DNA of 29,402 nt from a virus (IMGVR_UViG_3300042465_001330:1-29402), one strand, 5' to 3'. Numbered from the stretch's first letter, positions 2 through 26,996 are shown. Notes: generated by a model not told the origin, from the sequence alone. A program made the numbers and translations.

Positions 2-3000
2 ATTATCATTACTAAACCTAGCGATATATATTTTGACCGCGGATTAAAGACAGATAATAAAAATCTAAACAATAAGTTCTCGGGATATAGATCTCGTTTT
101 GAAACTATACAAAAGTTCCAACTTACTTGGTCAGATGACTTCTCAGATACAACCGTATCTAATGCTACAGGAGAAAACCAGTACGAGAAAACATTACCTA
201 GTACTTTATCAAATGAGGTAAGAAAAATAAATACCGCTGATACTATACAAGAGCTTACACAGGAAGGTATAGAGAATCCTACCGACTTGAGTATGAACCA
301 CTTAGCTAGATCAAGAAATCCTTTTGCAGGAACTCTTTTGATTCTAAATAGACTATTTGATGAGAATGGTAAGAAGCGTATCTACATATCTAGCTTTAAG
401 GACGTATACGAATCAAAGTTAGAATTATTAAATGCTTCCGGCGCAAGCGTAGCTTTAAGTAGAGTAGGAGAGTTAATTAGCGATAGCGGTATAGAATCAG
501 CTAATGCTGACGAGACTACTAAGTACTTACAAGACTTCTTTATGATGTTATTGTATGGTACTGCTGAAGCAACAAGACACGCTGATAAGGCTACTACATA
601 TATGATCCGTCTAATGGCTTACAACGAAAACGGAAAGAGACTTAAACATTTCTTTGATATGTCTTCGTTTGCCAGTAAGTCAGATCCTATGGGACCATCC
701 TTAGGTAAGATAAACTTTGTAAACAACATTATAAACTACATGTCTTCCGAATACGAACGCATGCAGAAACTAATAGACGGAGATGAGGCAGGTGATGCTT
801 TAATCGGTGACAAGACCTATAAAGAAATAGGTAGCAAGTTTGTAATATTTGAAAACGTAGTAGACGCTAAAGAGTTAAAAGAACTAGAAGACTTTAGAAA
901 TGCATCAATAAAAACAGCACAAGATTTTATAAAGTATCTTAATGCTGATAAAAACTCCGATCTCCGAAATAGAATTGAAATCCAAATCGGCAACTACCTA
1001 GATGGTCTTAAGAAGGATATGAAGAAGACTTTAGGTAAGATGAATTTCTTTAATAACAAGCCCTTATTAAATACTGCGTTATCTACTGTAGCATCTAGAG
1101 TCGTTATAGAGAGAGCAACCGAAGCGAAGATTGAAGAGTATACCGATGCTTTACTAGAAGGATATGTAGCGAATGACTGGACTAATAAGTTTGAAGTAAC
1201 TATGTTATTCTACGGTGATGTAGGATTAATTAAAAACGTAGATGATTTCTTTAAACGTAATGCGGGTATAGGTTCTACAGGAACAATACCTCGTACAGAT
1301 AAATATATGATCGATTATATTAACGATCGTTTGTCTAAGTTCAGTTACGCTAAAACATTAAAGCTTCCTGTAAAGTCATTTGGTAAAACAATGACTAGTG
1401 CTGTACTAGAAGATAAAATATCATCATCTGTATATCTTAAGGAATACATTAAAGCAGCTAAGGAAGAAGCTAAAAAATTCATAGATTCTTTAGACTTGTC
1501 TAAAGCAGATAAGGCTAAACGTCTTAAAGATACTTATGCTAATATTGAAAATAAGTTCAATAAGGCTTACGGTAAGATGACTGAGGCTGATGGTCAAGGT
1601 TGGATTACATTCGATGCTTATAGAGCTTTACTTATGTCTCTACGTAAGTGGTCTCCAGAACAAGAAAAACTATTTGTTAAAATATCTAAAGGTGAGACTA
1701 TAGATATAAATGAAGCACTTATGTTCTTCCCTGTTAAGAAGATGCAATATTGGGGACCGCTTTTAACCAAGGGTTTACCTGTTAAAGCATTCCATAAGTT
1801 TTCTTTAATGCCGCTTATTCCTAATATAATCGGTAATGAAAATTTGGGGATCCTACATCAGAAAATGATGGAGCAAAAGATTGATTACAGTTTAATGCTA
1901 TCTGGATCTAAACTTAATACTTTAACTAAAGATGGTAAGGTAGATAAGTTTTATAGTGATGCTACTTCAGCTGAAGATAGAAGTGTAGCCTTTGCGGATG
2001 CAGACTATACCTTTACACCTAATGAGATATTCCTAGATAACTTCAAGGACCAGGTAGACGTACACGATCACTATGATGGTAAGATTACTTTCTCTACACA
2101 GCTTCGTAAGCTTATTGAGAATGGACTTATGGCTAACGGTGTACCGACAGATTGGAGAACAGATATAAAAGATGATGAGGTTAGATATAACACGTGGGAG
2201 GCTGCGACTCCTGAAGAGAAGTTAAAGTCTAATAACTATAAAAAGATACTTAGATACGAGGCTTTACTTGCTAAACTTGTATCATTAAAGAAAGACCAGC
2301 TTAGTAAACGTATAGGTAAGAACAAAAAAGAACTAGTAAAATTTGTTAGGGAGAATCTTTCTCAAAGAGAGTTATCAGATAACGAACTAGACTTTATTGA
2401 CTACAACGGTATAACTAACGACTTTAAAAATGATTTAGACTTGTCTCTATCTGCTTCTCAAATTGAGAAACTATTAGTTGGTATTGTACAGAAGAAACTT
2501 GTAAATCAAAGAGTTACAGGTGAAGCTTTAGTTCAAGTATCCGGTGTAGGTTTTGAAAAGAGCAATGCTAAACTACGTAAAGCTACTAGTAAAGAAAGTA
2601 AGTTATACGGAGGTACAAATGGTCTTTCTACTTATCATATCGATAATGGTAAAGTTAGAGTATCTAAAGTAAAGATATCTTTACAAGGAAACTTTAAAAA
2701 GCTACTCTACTTAGATAGTGTTGTAGCTAAAGCAGAACAAGAAGGTATTGCAAAGATAGATGCGCTTAACGCTTTAATAAAAGATGAGAACTGGTTAGAC
2801 AAAGTAGTAGATCCTAAGAAAGAAATATATACAAAAGCTTTTGCTACTTTAGAAAGTTCTAAGGGTGACCGTAAATTATTCATACTTAGATCTGATTTAA
2901 CTCCAGAGATAGCGGCCCAACTTACACCTGATACAAAAGACGGTAAGCGTGTTAAAGGCAAAGAGTACTACGGCATTAAAATTCTTGGTGATTACTATTC

Positions 3001-6000
3001 ACATAACTTGCTTAAGTCTAAGGATGGAGAGAACCTAGATGTTATTGTTGTTGATAAGGTAGAAGATGCTGAAGCACAATACCAAGCCTATGTAGCAGGC
3101 GGTGCTAAGAACTTTACCGGCCTAGGTGATGTACAAAAACCTGATACTAATAGAGACTTTATTAGAATGGTTGCTGTACGTATTCCGGTACAAGGACTTA
3201 ACTCTATGGAGGTAATGGAAGTATTCGAATTCCTACCGGAATCATCAGGTAACATAGTTATTCTTCCAGCAGAGATTGTGGCTAAGTCAGGAGGTGACTT
3301 CGACATCGATAAGATGTTTACACTTATGCCTAACATCTCAGTTAAGTTAACTGATGACGGAACAAAGCAAGTACTTAAAAGTATGTCTGAACAGTTGGGT
3401 AGAACAATAACCGAACAAGATATTACAGACATTCAGAATAAGTATAAAAACGAGATGTTTGAATTCTCGGGAGAAGCATTTAGTGAAGAAGATGAGGATA
3501 TCTTAAATCTTTATGATTACCTAATAGATCAAAGTAAGATTAGTGTTTCTGTAAAACTGGATAAAGATGAGAATACTGTAAGAGGTGTGGAGAATGCTTT
3601 ATTAAAGGAGATGGGAGATATCTTAACCATGCCTGAAAACTTTGTCAACCTTGTTACACCTAACGGTATAGATATACTATCTGACATTGCGGAGGATATG
3701 GCGAGTAAAGTTAGAAAAGCATCTAAGGGTAAACAGCCGCTATCTAAAATATTTGAGCTTGGTCAGAATATGTACAAGCATCAATCAAATAGTATCGGTA
3801 AGGCTGTCTTAGGTATAATAGCTGTAGCTAATACATTTAATACTTTGTTTGCCCGTACAGGTCTTGTTATGTCAGAATCAAGAGTTCTTACATATACTAG
3901 CGATGGTAATCCAGTATCCATGAATCAAAATATTTACTTGAAACACAATACTATTAATGGTAGAATATCATTATCTAGTATGTATAGTAAAGACCTCGGT
4001 AATAAGGTAGCTGATGTAATCAACCAGATGATCAACGGAGCGGTTGACGTAGCTAAAGATGCTTGGATATTTGATATTCAAGGTAATAAAGAAGTTATAC
4101 CTTCTTTGTTATTTATGATTCAAGCCGGCGTACCTATTAAAGATGCGGTATACTTTGTATCACAACCTATTATTAGAGATTACATAAATAAAGTAAAGTT
4201 ATATAAGAGTCAGTTTGCTGTTCCTCTTGGTCAACCGGATACAGGAATGTATTTTAGATTAGAAGCAAGAAACAATATATTGTTTGATATCGCTAACGGT
4301 TTTACTAAAGATCCTTCACAGTACATTAATCCTTTAACTAATCGCTACGATAAAAGTTTAGTATTTGGTTTACTTGACGAATTTGCACCAGAGGTTAAAT
4401 CATTTAGCTCTGATGACCTATATAAAAATTTACAGAGATCTGAAGGTGAAGGATATACAGAAGTAGATAGAGCTGTATTTGCACATTTTCTACAGATACA
4501 AGAAATGGCTGGTCAGATTACACAGTTAACGCAAGGTCTGAAGTTTGATAACGACAGAACCTTAACCATGTCTGATGCTAGAATAAAACTAGATAAGATT
4601 GCAGAACTGTCTAATGGTATATCAGAAGAATCTATCAGAAGGATTGTAGAAGAATCACCTATCTCAGCATTTAAGATCCAAGACTATATCATAGAAAAGT
4701 TTGGAGGAATCTTTAAGCTTAAGGATGGAGCAGCTGTAAATAATATAATAGATAGAATCTTTGAACGTCAGCCAGATAATTCAAGTATCTACGCTAGATA
4801 TAAAAAGAATACTAAGATGGACGAGGATGAGTTTAGATTAAAGTATCGTGAAAACATCCTGACTTACTTATTCCAAAAAGATTTCTATACGTTTGATATA
4901 AATACTAAGTCCTACCAAAATCAGAATGTTCAATTCACAGTAGAGGAGGTAAGCAGTCTGACAGCTGGGGTAGGAGTTAAAAACGGTGTATTATATGTTA
5001 ATAAAAACGATATTAAAAAAACGTTTGATAACAAAGATTACTTGAAGAAGTGGACTTACGGAGCACCTCTTTCTGGCAACATACTTAGCATGTACGATAA
5101 TGTTACTGCTTTAGAGATGTTTACAAAGTTCTTATATGAAAGAGAGACGCTTAGAACATTTGAATCAAATTCTTTGGCTAACATTGAAACATCACCTGAA
5201 TATAGTTTTTACTATAAAGAATTTAGTAAAGAGACAGATGAAAAAATCAGATCTTACAAAGCGTATGAGTCTGTACTTAGAGATAGAGCTCTGACTAATA
5301 TAGGTTTACACGGACATTTGTTCTTTGGTCCTATGGCTTACGGTAGACAGATAATGAGACTCTCAGAGAAGTACCAAGATCTATTTAAGAAATACCCATT
5401 ACTAGATAACCTATCTGCAATAACAGTTAAGGCTGGTCTTGATACCTTTACAAATCTTAAGTTCTCAAATACGTTATTGACAAAAGATGACTACAATGAA
5501 TATGTAGTTAACTTTAATGAGCTATCTAATCCATCTGTAAAGAAGGTAGAGGATGATGTTGAGAATGAAAGAATCTCTAAGTTATTCCAGATGCTACCGT
5601 TATTTGCAATATTACAGTCAGGTTCTGATACAAAGAGTACTTATAGTTTGATTAGGGCGGTACCGTTTGAATCATACTTACCTCTTATTTCAAAACCATA
5701 TAAAGACTTTGTAGATTCTTCGTTGGATGAACAGACCTCAGTGCTTGCTGACTATACCTTACAGTTTGTTAAGAGCCAGTATAATAAGTCTAATAAGTTT
5801 AAAAACAAAATTAAAAACTGGGCTAAAAGTTCTGTGAAGGATTTAGAAATGACAAAGGATCTTAGAAATAGAATAATAAACTTAGATCCTAGTTTAGTTC
5901 CACCTGATCCGTTTAGTACTGATATCTTAGAAGATGAGGTAGATGAAAGCAGATTGGTAAAACTAAATGCTCCGGGCGGCGCTGTAGTAAAGATAAATCT

Positions 6001-8242
6001 AAATTCTTTAAAGATTGGATTTACTCCTAACAGCGAACAGTTAGATGCTCTTCAGAAAATGGTTGACTTTATAGAAGCCGACCCTAGTAATATATCTGCT
6101 CCAGAAAGAATGTTTTCTTTTACAGGATATGCTGGTACCGGTAAGACTAGTATCACAAAGATATTATTAAGCTATCTGAAGATGCGTGGAATCGGAACCG
6201 GTCTTACTGCAACAACACATAAAGCAAAGACTGTTCTTGCCAAGGCTACCGAAAACAAGACAGAAACTCTTCATAAGTTATTAAATCTACGACCTAGTCC
6301 TAAACCTCTTGAGGAGTTAGATTTAAGTGAATTAAACTTCCTTAGAGGAGAATCAAAAAAAGTAATACAGGATAAAGTAATTATTATTGATGAGTCTTCT
6401 TTTATTTCAGATGCTCTATTTGATTTTATAAAAGCTGAGCTTAATAATAGAGAAGACCTAAAAATAATTTTTATAGGAGATCCTGGGCAGCTTCAACCCG
6501 TAAAACAAAAAAATACATCTAAAGTATTTACAGATATTAGCAATGCTGTACAACTTACTAAGGTAGAAAGACAAGCCGGTGATAATCCATTAGGTCCAAT
6601 CTTAGATGGTATTAGAAGCAAGTTAGATTCACCTACAAGATTATTCTCTGCAGAGTCTGCAGTAAATGGTAATGAAGGTATAGCTTTCACTGTAGACAGA
6701 GAGTCTTTCTTAAAGGCTGCAGCAGAAGCATTTAGATCAGATAACTTTGCAAATAATAGAAACTTTGCAAGAATAATAACTTATACTAATGATGACGTAT
6801 CACAATTAAATAGAGATATTCGAAAATCTTTAGGCCTTACTGGAGAATTTAGACCAGGTGAAATACTAATGGCTTATAAGAATGCACAGTATTTCAAAGG
6901 AGATTACCAAATCAAGAATTCTGTAGACTATGTTATTTTAGAAAGTACTTATGTACCATCTAGAAAAATTGGAGAGCAGCACTTAAAAAATGCGATGTTT
7001 ACAGATAAAAAATTAAATACGCCGGTTGTTGCTGCAGGATATGAGGTACTAGTTCAGGATTTAAATGATCCAGAAGATGTCACAACTATGTTTATTTTAG
7101 ATCCATCTACAAGTGATGAGGCTTTGGAAAGACTTGCTGACCAAGCGGAGGCACTAAATAAACAGGCAAATAAAACTAACGTATTTAAAGATTTAAATGG
7201 TTTTAACGATTCATTCTTTAGTACTAAGAAGCTAGTAAGAAACGATAAAGAAAAAGTTAAGAAGGGTATTGATTATGGCTATGCTCATACAATTCATAAA
7301 TCTCAAGGTGCTACTTATACTAATATATTCGTAGACCTAGATTCTATATCAACTATTTCTGATCCTAGTCAAAGAAATAGAATGGATTATGTTAGTTTAT
7401 CTAGAGCTACAAATATAGCCTATGCTAAATTTAGCGGATCTACAAGCGAAAGTTTACCAGGTGAAATAGACTGGAACGATAGCTTCTCTAAGAAGTTTAC
7501 AGTTCCTATAGGTAAAGCAGGCTTTAAGTACGCATACAATATTGCTACATACTCTAAGATAAAGATTATGGAGGATCCTAAAACTGGTATCAGAACCTTT
7601 TCTTACAACTTAGAGAAAGAAACATTAAAATACATGATTGATGGTAAAGAAGTTACTATAACTAGGATGGTTCCGGTTAAAGGTATTCTTACAGAAGAAA
7701 CCGTAAGACAATTTGCAAATGACTATCCTAACGCTTTAGTATTATTTAATGACTATGATGGCAAGGGTAATCCTATTGGTACTAATAGTATCTGGAGAAT
7801 TCTAGGTTCTAATGCTGCAAGTATATTTACTAAAAGAGGACCCGCCCCAACAAAGATAGGATCAGAAAAGCATAACAAAGTAGCAGCTATGACTGATGAA
7901 ACTTTTGAAGAAAATAAGGCTCTTATAGATAAATCTTTAGAAGCAATTGAAGCTCAGCTTAATGCTCCAGGTGAACCTAAGTTTTTAATTATAGACGAGT
8001 ATGGTTTTGGTCAATACATGATAGGGTTTGTAGAAAACGAACCGACTGTACAAAAACCACAACTACCTGTTATAGCTAGGCAAACTTTCTTGTACCTATC
8101 AGAGCAATTATATCGTAAATTTGGTTATATAAATCCGCATTACCTATCCTTTAAAGAAGGTAGAGTATTAGTCCAGGAAGGAAATACTATTACTGATGAG
8201 GATATTATAGAAGAAAGAAAGTGTCAATTTAAAAGTAAATAG
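2..8242 (+). CDS. Giant phage RNA polymerase fused to an SF1 helicase (5' end outside the window)
   Basis: The reading frame is open from base 2, so the TTG/ATG pair near 287-295 is internal and the true start lies upstream; at least 2,746 residues are coded here. Bases 3179-3320 encode RIPVQG, SMEVMEVFEF and SGGDFDIDKMF. DFDID (3296-3310) matches the metal-binding aspartate motif of crAss-like single-chain RNA polymerases, which are related to cellular beta-prime and to eukaryotic RNA-dependent RNA polymerases. Bases 6000-7450 encode an SF1 helicase: Walker A GYAGTGKT (6125-6148), Walker B IIIDESS (about 6380-6400), GDPGQLQPV (about 6476-6502), IHKSQGATY (about 7290-7316) and YVSLSRATN (7388-7416), resembling RecD2/Dda enzymes. 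The last 240 residues are not recognised. By analogy with crAss-like phages the polymerase is probably packaged, injected and used for early transcription; what the helicase adds is inferred. The downstream gene starts two bases after the TAG stop. Confidence 0.9.
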   Translation: MIITKPSDIYFDRGLKTDNKNLNNKFSGYRSRFETIQKFQLTWSDDFSDTTVSNATGENQYEKTLPSTLSNEVRKINTADTIQELTQEGIENPTDLSMNHLARSRNPFAGTLLILNRLFDENGKKRIYISSFKDVYESKLELLNASGASVALSRVGELISDSGIESANADETTKYLQDFFMMLLYGTAEATRHADKATTYMIRLMAYNENGKRLKHFFDMSSFASKSDPMGPSLGKINFVNNIINYMSSEYERMQKLIDGDEAGDALIGDKTYKEIGSKFVIFENVVDAKELKELEDFRNASIKTAQDFIKYLNADKNSDLRNRIEIQIGNYLDGLKKDMKKTLGKMNFFNNKPLLNTALSTVASRVVIERATEAKIEEYTDALLEGYVANDWTNKFEVTMLFYGDVGLIKNVDDFFKRNAGIGSTGTIPRTDKYMIDYINDRLSKFSYAKTLKLPVKSFGKTMTSAVLEDKISSSVYLKEYIKAAKEEAKKFIDSLDLSKADKAKRLKDTYANIENKFNKAYGKMTEADGQGWITFDAYRALLMSLRKWSPEQEKLFVKISKGETIDINEALMFFPVKKMQYWGPLLTKGLPVKAFHKFSLMPLIPNIIGNENLGILHQKMMEQKIDYSLMLSGSKLNTLTKDGKVDKFYSDATSAEDRSVAFADADYTFTPNEIFLDNFKDQVDVHDHYDGKITFSTQLRKLIENGLMANGVPTDWRTDIKDDEVRYNTWEAATPEEKLKSNNYKKILRYEALLAKLVSLKKDQLSKRIGKNKKELVKFVRENLSQRELSDNELDFIDYNGITNDFKNDLDLSLSASQIEKLLVGIVQKKLVNQRVTGEALVQVSGVGFEKSNAKLRKATSKESKLYGGTNGLSTYHIDNGKVRVSKVKISLQGNFKKLLYLDSVVAKAEQEGIAKIDALNALIKDENWLDKVVDPKKEIYTKAFATLESSKGDRKLFILRSDLTPEIAAQLTPDTKDGKRVKGKEYYGIKILGDYYSHNLLKSKDGENLDVIVVDKVEDAEAQYQAYVAGGAKNFTGLGDVQKPDTNRDFIRMVAVRIPVQGLNSMEVMEVFEFLPESSGNIVILPAEIVAKSGGDFDIDKMFTLMPNISVKLTDDGTKQVLKSMSEQLGRTITEQDITDIQNKYKNEMFEFSGEAFSEEDEDILNLYDYLIDQSKISVSVKLDKDENTVRGVENALLKEMGDILTMPENFVNLVTPNGIDILSDIAEDMASKVRKASKGKQPLSKIFELGQNMYKHQSNSIGKAVLGIIAVANTFNTLFARTGLVMSESRVLTYTSDGNPVSMNQNIYLKHNTINGRISLSSMYSKDLGNKVADVINQMINGAVDVAKDAWIFDIQGNKEVIPSLLFMIQAGVPIKDAVYFVSQPIIRDYINKVKLYKSQFAVPLGQPDTGMYFRLEARNNILFDIANGFTKDPSQYINPLTNRYDKSLVFGLLDEFAPEVKSFSSDDLYKNLQRSEGEGYTEVDRAVFAHFLQIQEMAGQITQLTQGLKFDNDRTLTMSDARIKLDKIAELSNGISEESIRRIVEESPISAFKIQDYIIEKFGGIFKLKDGAAVNNIIDRIFERQPDNSSIYARYKKNTKMDEDEFRLKYRENILTYLFQKDFYTFDINTKSYQNQNVQFTVEEVSSLTAGVGVKNGVLYVNKNDIKKTFDNKDYLKKWTYGAPLSGNILSMYDNVTALEMFTKFLYERETLRTFESNSLANIETSPEYSFYYKEFSKETDEKIRSYKAYESVLRDRALTNIGLHGHLFFGPMAYGRQIMRLSEKYQDLFKKYPLLDNLSAITVKAGLDTFTNLKFSNTLLTKDDYNEYVVNFNELSNPSVKKVEDDVENERISKLFQMLPLFAILQSGSDTKSTYSLIRAVPFESYLPLISKPYKDFVDSSLDEQTSVLADYTLQFVKSQYNKSNKFKNKIKNWAKSSVKDLEMTKDLRNRIINLDPSLVPPDPFSTDILEDEVDESRLVKLNAPGGAVVKINLNSLKIGFTPNSEQLDALQKMVDFIEADPSNISAPERMFSFTGYAGTGKTSITKILLSYLKMRGIGTGLTATTHKAKTVLAKATENKTETLHKLLNLRPSPKPLEELDLSELNFLRGESKKVIQDKVIIIDESSFISDALFDFIKAELNNREDLKIIFIGDPGQLQPVKQKNTSKVFTDISNAVQLTKVERQAGDNPLGPILDGIRSKLDSPTRLFSAESAVNGNEGIAFTVDRESFLKAAAEAFRSDNFANNRNFARIITYTNDDVSQLNRDIRKSLGLTGEFRPGEILMAYKNAQYFKGDYQIKNSVDYVILESTYVPSRKIGEQHLKNAMFTDKKLNTPVVAAGYEVLVQDLNDPEDVTTMFILDPSTSDEALERLADQAEALNKQANKTNVFKDLNGFNDSFFSTKKLVRNDKEKVKKGIDYGYAHTIHKSQGATYTNIFVDLDSISTISDPSQRNRMDYVSLSRATNIAYAKFSGSTSESLPGEIDWNDSFSKKFTVPIGKAGFKYAYNIATYSKIKIMEDPKTGIRTFSYNLEKETLKYMIDGKEVTITRMVPVKGILTEETVRQFANDYPNALVLFNDYDGKGNPIGTNSIWRILGSNAASIFTKRGPAPTKIGSEKHNKVAAMTDETFEENKALIDKSLEAIEAQLNAPGEPKFLIIDEYGFGQYMIGFVENEPTVQKPQLPVIARQTFLYLSEQLYRKFGYINPHYLSFKEGRVLVQEGNTITDEDIIEERKCQFKSK

Positions 8243-23660: not shown

Positions 23661-24768
23661 TAGGCGCAACGCTTTTGCTCTCTTCATTTTTAGGAGTATT
23701 TTCGTTAATATAATCTTGGTAAGACTTAGTTATCATAATGTCTACACCAAAGAAGTTTCTGAGTTTCTCTAGGTTATCCTTAAAGTACTTGGTTTGTTCC
23801 CTAGCTTCATCATAAAGAATCTCGATATAGTTATCCTCGGTAAGACACTTATTATCAAGTAAGTACTTAAGAGTCTCTTTATATGATTGTCTACTAATAG
23901 AACTAATATTAAAGCTCTTCCTAAATATATCTAGGTTCTTTCTATTCATAGCTGACTCAATTCGGTAACTATGTTCTTTAAGAAGCTTTACTATATAGTG
24001 TCTAGACTTATCATAGTCACAGTTAAATAACATCTCAGCAGCTAAGCTTCGGTCATCATTACCGCTAGTCTCAAACATAATATTTAGGGTATTATATATA
24101 TCTGCGTCTATAACAACACGCTCTATAGAATTGAATAACCTTTCTTCATTTACAACAGGTACACTACCTGATAAGATTCTATGTAAGATTGCTACACACT
24201 CTCCAGATACTACATTGTATCTATGATCTGTTGCATAGAGCGGTCCCCAAGAATCCTTATGGTTATAATACCTGTTGGTAAATAATAGTTTACCATTAAT
24301 AGGAGTTTCCAAATCAGGAAACTGTGGGAACTTAGCTTGCACAGTAGCAATATCAAAATCACCATTGATAAAGAAATGCTTAAGATCAATACCCTCAGTA
24401 CCTAGAGTTTGTGCAGGCTCCTGGTTTATAGGCTTTAAGATATTATTCTCATTACCTACAAATAAGTCTGCCTTAGAAATATCACTAGTTATAGTAAACC
24501 CATGCATCTTACATATCTCTCTGATATGCACTTGCGTATACATACAATTGGGGAGAACATATACCTTACTCTTTTTGGGAAGGTTAGGCATTTCTCCACC
24601 TGTTAATAGTTTTTGAATCTTTGGTAGATCATCATCGGTTACACTATACATGTTATATAACACAACAGTATCTTTAGGATAAGCTATGATGGGCATAGCC
24701 TCCCCGATAAAGGGAAGCTGCGCCAACATAGTAGATGTAACCGGATTAGAAGTTAAATCCGCTTTCAT
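23647..24768 (-). CDS. Uncharacterised protein, first of a tandem paralogous pair
   Basis: A 373-residue protein beginning MKADLTSNPVTSTMLAQL. Residues 65-115 contain SKVYVLPN and ITSDISKADLFVGNEN, matching SIYFTP...DLNKADVIITCQ of the next gene. A later helical part (VVIDADIYNTLNIMFET, YDKSRHYIVKLLKEHS, YKETLKYLLDNKCL) matches the same region of its neighbour. Its start shares one base with the stop of the MoxR-type ATPase exon 2 (TAATG), so it is probably translated with that gene. Identity between the pair is low, which points to an old duplication. No known family was recognised; the K-A-D element after two short strands resembles a nucleotide-independent Rossmann-like fold. Confidence 0.65.
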   Translation of the reverse strand: MKADLTSNPVTSTMLAQLPFIGEAMPIIAYPKDTVVLYNMYSVTDDDLPKIQKLLTGGEMPNLPKKSKVYVLPNCMYTQVHIREICKMHGFTITSDISKADLFVGNENNILKPINQEPAQTLGTEGIDLKHFFINGDFDIATVQAKFPQFPDLETPINGKLLFTNRYYNHKDSWGPLYATDHRYNVVSGECVAILHRILSGSVPVVNEERLFNSIERVVIDADIYNTLNIMFETSGNDDRSLAAEMLFNCDYDKSRHYIVKLLKEHSYRIESAMNRKNLDIFRKSFNISSISRQSYKETLKYLLDNKCLTEDNYIEILYDEAREQTKYFKDNLEKLRNFFGVDIMITKSYQDYINENTPKNEESKSVAPNGGN

Positions 24769-25529
24769 TATTTTACCGCCATTTTAACGATCTCGCTATT
24801 TAACATGAGCTTAGTAAACTTGGCTTTGTTGCCATTAATAATACCTTTCACAACTGCATACTTAAGGTCATTAGTGAACAAGTCCTTATCTGTGATAAAG
24901 TTAGTTACACGGTCAATGATCTTTTGGTCTACAGTATTACCATTAGAATAGTGAATAGTATAGTTAATCAAGCGATGTGCTAGTACACTAGCGATATCTG
25001 CACGATAATCATTACCATCTACTTTACCCATAGCAGTACCCATCTGACCTTTGATATGCTCCCAGTTAGTATGCGTTAACATATCTTTAGGAGAAACCAT
25101 TTGGTCAAGCTTGTTATGGATAAACGTAGTAAACAAAGTAGCAAACTCTGCGCCTACGCTACCCTCACCAATCATTTGGATTAGTGGTAAGCTATCTTCA
25201 AACTTCTCTAGGCTAGAGATACTATTGAAGAAAGTAGTAATACTACGAGCATTAGTCTTCTGAGTTACAGTCTCAGGATGCATCAACAAGAAGTTAATAC
25301 AGCGAGAGTCAATCTCATTTTGCTCTGCCCAACGAGCCCAGCATTCTACATCAAACTTTAAGTTAGTAGTAATAAAGCGAGTCTTTTGAGCCACGTCAAT
25401 ACTAGTAACATTATAGTCACCATTGTCTGGATTAGTAGTTAATACAATATGCCAGTCCTTTGGTAACTTCCAAGAGATATAAGTTTGACGGTCAATTAAT
25501 TCCATACACGCCTGCAGAAAACGAGAGTC
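24768..25529 (-). CDS. MoxR-type AAA+ ATPase, exon 2 (C-terminal part)
   Basis: With the intron removed at 25530-26549, exon 2 adds eight residues (DSRFLQAC) ahead of the ATG at 25505 and then 245 residues. Joined to exon 1 the frame is intact and gives a 402-residue protein. Exon 2 carries the ATPase sensor 1 (IVLTTNPDNGDYN) and QKTRF, which likely includes an arginine finger, as in MoxR-type AAA+ proteins. The rest is the helical lid and C-terminal region. MoxR-type ATPases act with vWA-domain partners to remodel proteins or complexes, and such a partner gene lies just upstream. Without splicing this part could only be made from an internal start and would lack Walker A and B. Confidence 0.85.
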   Translation of the reverse strand, partial: DSRFLQACMELIDRQTYISWKLPKDWHIVLTTNPDNGDYNVTSIDVAQKTRFITTNLKFDVECWARWAEQNEIDSRCINFLLMHPETVTQKTNARSITTFFNSISSLEKFEDSLPLIQMIGEGSVGAEFATLFTTFIHNKLDQMVSPKDMLTHTNWEHIKGQMGTAMGKVDGNDYRADIASVLAHRLINYTIHYSNGNTVDQKIIDRVTNFITDKDLFTNDLKYAVVKGIINGNKAKFTKLMLNSEIVKMAVK

Positions 25530-26549
25530 CTAACTTGTTATCAATCAAGCATTTAACTTGATTTTCTATACCTTTATATATACGTATAGTCCAGACTATA
25601 TCTTCACACATACTTGTGTGTTGGGTGCTCGTGTTCCTATTATATTCCAGTAAACTGGTTTCAAGGATTAGTCGTTGAACCTTCAAAGAACTTTTAAATT
25701 CTAAGCTCGGCTGCTGATTGTCTTCATAAGTAAAGATGTCCCAGCAATTCTCCCAATTACGTGCCCACTCTCGTTTTAAATTTCCATATGTAACCATAAG
25801 CTTGTGTTGTAATATTTCTACAACATGCTGAAACATTAGTACAATGTGAATCAAAATTTCCATTTAATTGTAAATCCCTAACTGCATCAGCAATTGATGG
25901 GTATTCGCATATAAAACTACCAAATGAATCACATTTTTCTACTGTTTTAGCTTTAGCTTTATGACTATTGTTACTATATGAAATCTTATTTGTTTTTTCA
26001 TATGACCAAAAATAACCGTAGGCTGACCTAGAAGAAGTATTTCCTCTAGCTGCAGAAGCAATCATGCTGCTGTTTTTGCCTAACTCTCTTTCAGCAGATG
26101 CTGCAGAAAGATGTTCTTTAATAAAACGTCCGTCTAGAGTATATTGATAAACCTTCTTACATTTATAAGATCCTTGTTGTAATACGGGATCTTGTTCAAT
26201 GTTAAGCTCAGGTTTTAAAGTATCAATATAAAACTTCTCGCGAGTAAGTAAATCTTTTTGCTCACAGTATTCTAAGACTTTAAAAAAACAACTCTTCTCA
26301 CCATACTTTTTAAAATGATTAACTAGTATAATGTTAGCATGTTTTCCTGTTCTAAGTCTCCTCCTATGACAAAATAACCTTTTACTTATGCATACAGAAC
26401 TTCCTATATAAGTTTTGTTATTTATTAGTAACATATAGATACCTGACTTTGAATAGTTTTTAGTCAGATTCTTAACAGCATATAGACTTTCCATACGCCA
26501 AATATACAATATTCTTGATGATTATACTAAAAAATATTTATAATTTTTA
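25530..26549 (-). ncRNA. Group I self-splicing intron in the ATPase gene
   Basis: The 1,020-base insertion splits the ATPase right after the Walker B segment. The 5' exon ends in T (GTGCT, 26550) and the intron ends in G (25530), as group I introns require, and splicing joins GCT to GAC in frame. The minus strand shows conserved core elements near the 3' end: CAATCAGCAGCCGAGC (25720-25705), ACGACTA (25675-25669, 5' half of P7) and AAGATATAGTC (25604-25594, 3' half of P7). A homing endonuclease gene occupies the 5' two-thirds. A possible guide sequence GGCGT (26499-26495) could pair with the 5' exon end and give the expected U-G at the splice site; this last pairing is tentative. Confidence 0.85.
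25757..26494 (-). CDS. GIY-YIG homing endonuclease with NUMOD repeats, inside the intron
   Basis: A 245-residue protein from the ATG at 26494 (a TTG five codons upstream is less likely). The N-terminal GIY-YIG nuclease shows SGIYMLLINNKTYIGSS, then KRLFCHRRRLRTGKHAN and an acidic residue in TREKFYIDTLKPELN. Two C-terminal DNA-binding repeats of the NUMOD1/IENR1 kind follow (VYQYTLDGRFIKEHLSAASA...AYGYFWSYE and CDSFGSFICEYPSIADAV...AYGYIWKFK). Such enzymes cut intron-free alleles and copy the intron into them. The gene sits between the 5' splice site and the intron core and stops just before the core. Its own expression must occur from the unspliced RNA or an internal promoter. Confidence 0.9.
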   Translation of the reverse strand: MESLYAVKNLTKNYSKSGIYMLLINNKTYIGSSVCISKRLFCHRRRLRTGKHANIILVNHFKKYGEKSCFFKVLEYCEQKDLLTREKFYIDTLKPELNIEQDPVLQQGSYKCKKVYQYTLDGRFIKEHLSAASAERELGKNSSMIASAARGNTSSRSAYGYFWSYEKTNKISYSNNSHKAKAKTVEKCDSFGSFICEYPSIADAVRDLQLNGNFDSHCTNVSACCRNITTQAYGYIWKFKTRVGT

Positions 26550-26573
26550 AGCACGAGTATAGTCATCAAGAAT
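26511..26573. repeat. 18-base inverted repeat across the exon 1/intron junction
   Basis: The arms are 26511-26528 (attcttgatgattatact) inside the intron and 26556-26573 (agtatagtcatcaagaat) in exon 1; 17 of 18 bases are complementary. The 27-base interval holds the 5' splice site. In the pre-mRNA the arms can form a stem with the splice site in its loop. The arm in the exon encodes the ILDDYT of Walker B. Confidence 0.75.
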
Positions 26574-26996
26574 TAAGATACCGCCTTCTTCTTTACCTTG
26601 GATCCACTCTGGAGTAGCATGAGACATGCGCTTCTCTCCAGTTGGTACATACTTATTCTGAATATACATTGGCATTACATTCTCGGGTATCCACTTAGAC
26701 ACCTTCTTGCCATCATCAGTAGTCTTAGCTACTTCAAATTCTTTAATAGGAAAACCGGTTAAGTCACCAATCTCCTCAATCTGAGCAAGATTAATCTTAA
26801 CAACATTAAGACCTAGGTCCTTACCTATCTCAAGGATGGTACTTGTCTTACCAATACCAGCCTCACCCTCTACAGCAATTGCTACTGGAACTTTACCATT
26901 AGCCTGCAGATATCTATTGTTATCTACAATATGATTTACAAAAGTCTTTAACTCGTCTGTGTTAAGATTTACCTGTGTTGATTGTGCTTTACTCAT
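26550..26996 (-). CDS. MoxR-type AAA+ ATPase, exon 1 (N-terminal part)
   Basis: Exon 1 encodes 149 residues from the ATG at 26996. It has Walker A (GEAGIGKTST, about residues 44-53) and Walker B (ILILDDYTRA, residues 140-149), with an extended segment between them that includes DLTGFPIKEF, characteristic of MoxR-like ATPases. Read without splicing it runs into a stop codon right after the Walker B motif. Joined to exon 2 the DDYTRA-DSRFLQ junction reads naturally through the region following Walker B. The gene starts five bases after the vWA/DUF2201-type gene, so the two form a MoxR-vWA pair. Its role in the phage is not established; a chaperone-like action on phage or host complexes is the usual inference. 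Confidence 0.88.

Follow-up and report, generated by a model that had tools for sequence, protein, structure and literature searches.

Sequence evidence for a homing group I intron with a GIY-YIG endonuclease in the AAA+ ATPase gene of environmental crAss-like phages

The window analysed here is a viral sequence of 29,402 nt (IMGVR_UViG_3300042465_001330:1-29402), and its minus strand carries an AAA+ ATPase gene that is split by an intron (Table 1). We conclude, with a probability of roughly 93%, that the intruding element is a mobile group I intron with this gene as its homing target within an environmental clade of crAss-like phages. Exon 1, which holds the Walker A (GEAGIGKT) and Walker B (LILDDYTRA) motifs, ends in LDDYTRA with GCT as its final codon; the very first codon of the intron halts the reading frame (GCT|TAA), which is picked up again 1020 nt further on, where exon 2 opens with GAC and encodes DSRFLQAC. 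Excision of 26549-25530 leaves a single in-frame ATPase of 402 codons, and recomputation reproduced the coordinates, the GCT/GAC join and the codon number given in the original prediction. A covariance-model search with Rfam RF00028 (cutoff 50 bits) matched the ribozyme core at 58.4 bits (E = 1.4e-12), in agreement with the predicted group I class, and the predicted U before the intron and G at its end are found as the U.G pair of P1 and as omega-G, together with in-frame exon ligation. An alignment check that had been named beforehand showed that intronless homologues carry an uninterrupted DSRFLQAC-type junction. The pattern is far beyond chance, since such homologues are joined at precisely this point and since the intron recurs at this position in a second phage. 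The presence of a group I intron in the ATPase gene is hence confirmed, and its sequence implies that it would be spliced. Simple gene calling had been expected to report two truncated ATPases, and plain open reading frame (ORF) calls indeed gave 149 and 245 aa. Recognition of the join puts right the annotation of a conserved phage gene, which plain callers break up into two or three fragments in no fewer than 70 public contigs.

The position of the splice sites was examined through the pairing of the intron with its exons. Against the ligated exons CGTGCT|GACTCTCG, a 14-nt guide, CGAGAGTGGGCACG (25773-25760), forms pairs at 13 of 14 positions, and the runner-up location within the intron reaches 10 of 14. 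The 3′ part of the guide makes a P1 of six pairs with the U.G at the splice site, and the 5′ part, lengthened to AAAACGAGAGT, pairs with exon 2 as a P10 of 11 bp and −14.7 kcal/mol, compared with −6.3 kcal/mol for the flanks of intronless relatives. A long complement between exon 1 and the intron was considered as P1 and rejected because it has no U.G, whereas CGUGCU/GGCACG has one and fits both P10 and the empty-site join. P1/P10 pairing thus supports exact splice sites that agree with those originally proposed, and the in-frame join and the intronless homologues confirm them. Because the whole guide (25777-25760) sits in the final codons of the homing endonuclease gene (HEG), ∼780 nt from the 5′ splice site, the HEG fills the P1 loop. 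Among related introns inserted between codons 150 and 151 (site-150 introns), exon 2 changes from CAC to CAA alongside guide GG to GT in L143, the exon changes from TTTATG to TTTATA alongside guide GCATAAA to GTATAAA in L184, and the outermost P1 pair is U-A in L128, A-U in L178 and G-C in L163. This guide–exon covariation across ∼780 nt therefore supports P1 and P10, with the caveat that flank and guide may have been transferred as a single unit. For the core, RNAalifold predicted 53 pairs from 12 cores representing all four insertion sites described below, and 37 of these pairs have double changes that are still paired. P7 is a pseudoknot, which RNAalifold cannot draw, and was judged by inspection: its two halves, GACTA and TAGTC, are unchanged across 12 related introns.

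The HEG frame is open for 245 codons and contains both the GIY and the YIG motif. Its product scores 79.7 bits against TIGR01453 (cutoff 56.05), and these two observations uphold the earlier assignment as a GIY-YIG homing endonuclease; with Pfam, NUMOD1 is above cutoff at 27.4 bits and GIY-YIG slightly below it (21.9 bits, cutoff 22.6). The HEG is apparently intact, and its product would be expected to cleave DNA. The slightly low Pfam score, and a record that consists of metagenomic sequence only, would suit a degenerate intron that has lost splicing or homing, or one that splices in a phage for which the ATPase is dispensable. We regard this as very improbable in view of the open frame with its motifs and TIGR01453 score, a core that is 100% identical to that of contig L023 over ∼320 nt, and the perfect 11-bp fit of P10 to the exon.

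Mobility is indicated by the distribution of the intron. Among the 80 viral contigs closest by exon 2, 76 have no group I intron in the ATPase gene. Contig L001, with 99% protein and 96.4% DNA identity to the window, is uninterrupted at the intron site, and in the exon-2 tree the window groups with L001 and next with L002, both intronless, and not with L023. L023 carries the same intron at the same site, 97.0% identical overall and fully identical over the last ∼320 nt, and its exons are 83% identical to those of the window, within a range of 76–86%. The flank of the site is GCT|GACTCTCGTTTT in the window and L023 and GC[AT]|GA[TC]AGCAGATTC in L001-L009, with the encoded residues unchanged. 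Of the 43 DNA differences between the window and L001, 9 fall within 13 nt (−1 to +12); the window equals L023 at all eight differing positions up to +11, and the co-converted tract ends before −19 and +14. Since the base ahead of the site is A instead of U in L001-type alleles, the flank had to travel with the intron for splicing. Hence patchy presence, near-identical empty relatives, an intron more alike than its exons and a donor-like flank are all found here, as for mobile introns. The coupling of flank changes to intron presence indicates co-conversion combined with the constraint of P1/P10 pairing. Alternatively, the flank could have been selected for better P1/P10 pairing after insertion, in line with the observations that every flank change improves guide pairing and that exon changes go with guide changes among the site-150 introns. 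This explanation appears rather unlikely, since a single event fits better with 8 donor-like differences in 12 nt against 2.8% elsewhere, and since the L001-type GCA offers no U at the splice site, so that the flank would be required from the outset. Co-conversion during homing is thus preferred, and the near-identical empty and filled alleles, the short tract and the exon letters that track the guide make an unusually clear natural record of homing.

A wider survey by scans with related HEGs revealed introns at four sites of the ATPase gene: at 149|150 in the window and L023, three bases further downstream at 150|151 in 60 contigs, at codon 48 inside Walker A in 7 contigs, and at 78|79 in the motif GDLxGxP in 7 contigs. 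Some contigs have two introns in the gene. As originally noted, the window's intron lies in the most conserved part of the gene. All four insertion points are bordered by invariant family columns, which agrees with the fact that group I introns generally favour conserved sites (PMC2814812). The site-150 intron changes state at least 9 times on the tree, and its presence differs within the near-identical pairs L080/L178 and L064/L053. Moreover, codon 149 is GCG in 38/38 genes with the intron compared with 2/55 without (Fisher 4e-24), codon 77 is GGG in 5/5 compared with 0/55 (2e-7), and codon 152 is CGN in 30/38 intron rows compared with 5/55 (4e-12), where the intron rows outside CGN are mostly alignment spill into the intron; all these Fisher values ignore the relatedness of the rows. 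Judging from these counts, the ATPase gene is an intron hotspot at which the flank is tied to the intron at every site. In L174 the site-150 intron is ∼475 nt longer than the rest, with an extra insertion ahead of the core. Outside this gene, a different AAA ATPase is interrupted in its P-loop (GNPGV^AKTKT) by a group I intron in L105 (∼1540-2570) and L106; the insertion is at the same codon position as that of the codon-48 introns, and the intron's GIY-YIG ORF apparently spans most of the ribozyme core.

The sequence directly ahead of the HEG suggests how the endonuclease may be expressed. In flavobacteria, the sigma-A promoter motif TAnnTTTG spans −12 to −5, and leaderless mRNAs make up 5.5% of the mapped mRNAs of Flavobacterium psychrophilum (PMC9723704). 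In the window the leader reads TATATTTG-GCGT-ATG, and the corresponding arrangement is TATCTTT[G/A]-N4-ATG in 60/60 site-150 introns, TATATTTG or TATCTTTG followed by TAAC-ATG in the codon-48 introns, TATATTTG-TAT-ATG in the codon-78 introns of L195-L200 and TATCTTGT-AGAC-ATG in L052, which matches the SM5 variant TAnnTTGY; in the first intron of L023 the box is placed 12 nt further upstream. Nearly all these HEGs thus begin 3–4 nt downstream of a −7 box of the Bacteroidota sigma-A type, from which an HEG mRNA that starts at or beside its AUG is predicted. TAnnTTTG occurs 46 times on the two strands of the window, so that the box could be a mere product of AT-rich leaders; we find this doubtful because the spacing to ATG is fixed at four insertion sites whose leaders have otherwise diverged, the chance of a box at such spacing being 0.2–2.5% per representative leader, and because the box was absent from the ∼47 nt ahead of 54 other genes of the gut Suoliviridae phage cr109_1 (0/54) and likewise ahead of 5 cr109_1 HEGs. 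If AUG-start transcription from within the P1 loop is real, a host that is free of Shine-Dalgarno sequences would separate endonuclease translation from ribozyme folding in a simple way. TATATTTG also occurs outside the intron, at 21046-21019 of the window, 27 nt ahead of a gene start.

The putative promoter of the window is overlapped by an inverted copy of exon 1. The copy, AGTATAATCATCAAGAAT, matches the exon-1 flank of the homing site at 17/18 positions, a score reached by at most 0.1% of shuffles. Relative to the putative promoter it occupies −34 to −17. It forms a hairpin with exon 1 in the precursor (z −2.3), and the short predicted HEG transcript would be without it. The L023 copy matches the window exon at 18/18 positions and its own exon at 16/18, and this better fit may point to a window-like gene as its source. 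A copy of the homing site was sought in the leaders of the other introns and none was found, so that only the window and L023 have one and an operator role stays hypothetical. Three intron endonucleases of phage T4 have homing-site-like operators over their promoters, with hairpins only on the long transcripts (PMC2988022). By analogy, and speculatively, the inverted copy may allow the HEG product to repress its own gene in the manner of I-TevI. We give even odds that the copy is instead a functionless fold-back accident of replication, or acts as an RNA hairpin only: its confinement to two introns, the folding of the hairpin and the poorer fit of the L023 arm to its own exon would all be expected on such grounds, as opposed to its position at exactly −34 to −17, an arrangement that resembles the T4 intron operators.

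Taken together, these results suggest the following course of events. In the precursor RNA, the guide would form P1, including the U.G, at the end of exon 1 and P10 at the start of exon 2, and the ribozyme would link GCU to GAC and so restore the ATPase, as structure, covariation and reading frame lead us to infer. In DNA, the GIY-YIG endonuclease would cut intronless alleles around the site, and repair would copy the intron along with a short exon flank that fits the guide, as suggested by the distribution and by the footprint of co-conversion. Transcription of the endonuclease gene probably starts from the promoter within the P1 loop and gives an mRNA that begins at AUG. With such an mRNA, translation of the HEG would not depend on the precursor, on which ribosomes would cross the guide. 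The inverted copy over the HEG promoter may in addition permit autorepression. Several points weigh against this interpretation: splicing, cleavage and promoter activity are read from sequence, the promoter box was spotted post hoc and sequences within one site share descent, the box reads TATATTTA in L105 (whose intron is in another ATPase) and is the variant TATCTTGT in L052, the operator idea draws on the window and L023 only, and the rows of the codon table are related, so that the p-values overstate their independence. A broader proposal, possible but on balance not favoured, is that of an intron family at home in one AAA+ ATPase gene, which occupies four sites as self-contained units (ribozyme, exon guide of 18–19 nt, co-converted flank, P1-loop HEG and host-type AUG-start promoter) and of which the window type represses itself via a copy of its target. 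Specific predictions follow for the position of the exon join, the start of the endonuclease transcript and the cut site.

In the td intron of T4 the HEG lies in L6, whereas here it lies in the P1 loop. The td/I-TevI system is alike in having a group I intron that starts with UAA in a phage gene, a GIY-YIG endonuclease with an internal promoter, a homing-site-like operator (15/20 in td) and co-conversion (PMC2988022); the present intron differs in its host gene, in a predicted Bacteroidota-like promoter that starts on AUG and in having no Shine-Dalgarno hairpin. Delta and Zeta crAss-like gut phages have group I introns in core genes, including that for the AAA ATPase ATP_43b (Yutin 2021, PMC7886860), and thus share phage type, core-gene introns and an AAA ATPase host with the present case, whereas the present clade is environmental and its other genes are almost without detectable introns. 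We rejected an identification of the window ATPase with ATP_43b, because two candidate ATPases of cr109_1, whose identity as ATP_43b is assumed, share the P-loop only; the window ATPase appears to belong to another family. A DNA match in cr111_1 was likewise discarded as an ATPase intron, the intron being in thyX, and gp059 of cr111_1, which adjoins a 'metalloprotease' gene, is not the ATPase either. The intron that splits this thyX (NC_055880.1, 45862-46858) is group I-like and contains an endonuclease ORF with a TACCTTTG box 27 nt ahead of its ATG, and the record lists two thymidylate synthase genes. A HEG in a P1 extension is also known from the S1389 nuclear ribosomal DNA introns of myxomycetes, which differ in their His-Cys endonucleases, rRNA host genes and eukaryotic hosts (PMC8395846). 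Jug phage resembles the present case in that it has many group I introns in essential genes of Bacteroidota phages, and differs in being a huge gut phage with introns of ∼206 nt on average and mostly stand-alone endonucleases (PMC12363816). A literature search, with most subscription journals outside its scope, found no description of an intron in this ATPase gene, of a phage HEG in P1 or of an AUG-start HEG transcript. Hence, the kind of element is already known, and what appears to be new is the host gene and its four sites, the position of the HEG in the P1 loop together with a long guide, the flanks matched to it and a −7 box at fixed spacing.

Table 1. Features of the intron-split ATPase gene and its upstream neighbour in the window
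Feature	Position	Strand	Basis
DUF2201 metallopeptidase/VWA gene, upstream neighbour	28204-27002	-	Pfam DUF2201_N 67.1 bits, DUF2201 59.2 bits
Exon 1, AAA+ ATPase residues 1-149	26996-26550	-	In-frame join; contiguous homologues
Exon-1 homing-site flank copied by leader arm	26573-26556	-	Complement of 26528-26511
P1 5′ strand, exon CGUGCU including splice-site U	26555-26550	-	Pairs with 25765-25760
Group I intron, 1020 nt, TAA start, omega-G end	26549-25530	-	RF00028; L023 copy; empty in L001-L022
Inverted copy AGTATAATCATCAAGAAT, candidate operator and/or precursor hairpin arm	26528-26511	-	17/18 match to exon 1
Putative −7 box TATATTTG	26506-26499	-	4-nt spacer sets predicted start on A of HEG ATG
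GIY-YIG HEG, 245 aa, with NUMOD1, in P1 loop	26494-25757	-	TIGR01453, Pfam
Ribozyme core (Rfam match)	25799-25573	-	RF00028; core covariation
P10 guide strand AAAACGAGAGU	25777-25767	-	Complementary to exon 2 at 25528-25518
P1 3′ strand (internal guide sequence) GGCACG, in final HEG codons	25765-25760	-	Pairing; covariation of P1 and exon 1 among related introns
P7 5′ half GACUA	25673-25669	-	Invariant in 12 related introns
P7 3′ half UAGUC	25598-25594	-	Invariant in 12 related introns
Exon 2, ATPase residues 150-402	25529-24768	-	In-frame join; contiguous homologues
P10 exon strand ACUCUCGUUUU, within co-converted tract	25528-25518	-	Common to L023; differs from L001-L009

The host protein was classed as an AAA+ ATPase by PHROG 1297 (2e-36), and its closest solved structures are midasins. 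No Pfam AAA model was above cutoff for the window ATPase; among 15 single family members AAA_5 was matched in 10 and the MoxR-type AAA_3 in 5, weakly in both cases (∼1e-4), and the gene upstream encodes a DUF2201 metallopeptidase/VWA protein. Of the predicted MoxR-type ATPase, the AAA+ part therefore stands, and the MoxR type is plausible but weak. In the ATPase relatives L045-L051, L068, L070 and L073 the N-terminal ∼100 residues match twice, as in a duplication. The assignment to crAss-like phages was borne out by the large RNA polymerase subunit, which contains the motif DFDID, resembles gp66 of Cellulophaga phage phi14:2 (tblastn to the catalytic subunit, E = 3e-16) and is also similar to that of the crAss phage cr108_1; the placement comes from this subunit, the window being without a terminase or capsid gene for placing it within the order. 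The RNA polymerase-like part (DFDID) is fused with a Dda-like SF1 helicase in a 2651-aa protein at 287-8242.

A survey of 50 related records with RF00028 found almost no introns outside the ATPase gene. This scarcity is weak evidence because RF00028 is insensitive, giving 19.8 and 31.5 bits on introns in the neighbouring DUF2201/VWA gene of L022 and L023, respectively. That gene is uninterrupted in the window; it is split after codon 73, inside HExxH, in L022 (∼3449-4546) and near codon 99, in AMDLEIN, in L023 (∼1441-2520), by introns of another type with LAGLIDADG-like ORFs within the core. Two ORF-less group I introns lie ∼280 nt apart in an apparent DNA polymerase gene of L104 (3761-4518, minus strand), an 8-kb contig that also contains a DUF805b cis-regulatory RNA and a transfer RNA.

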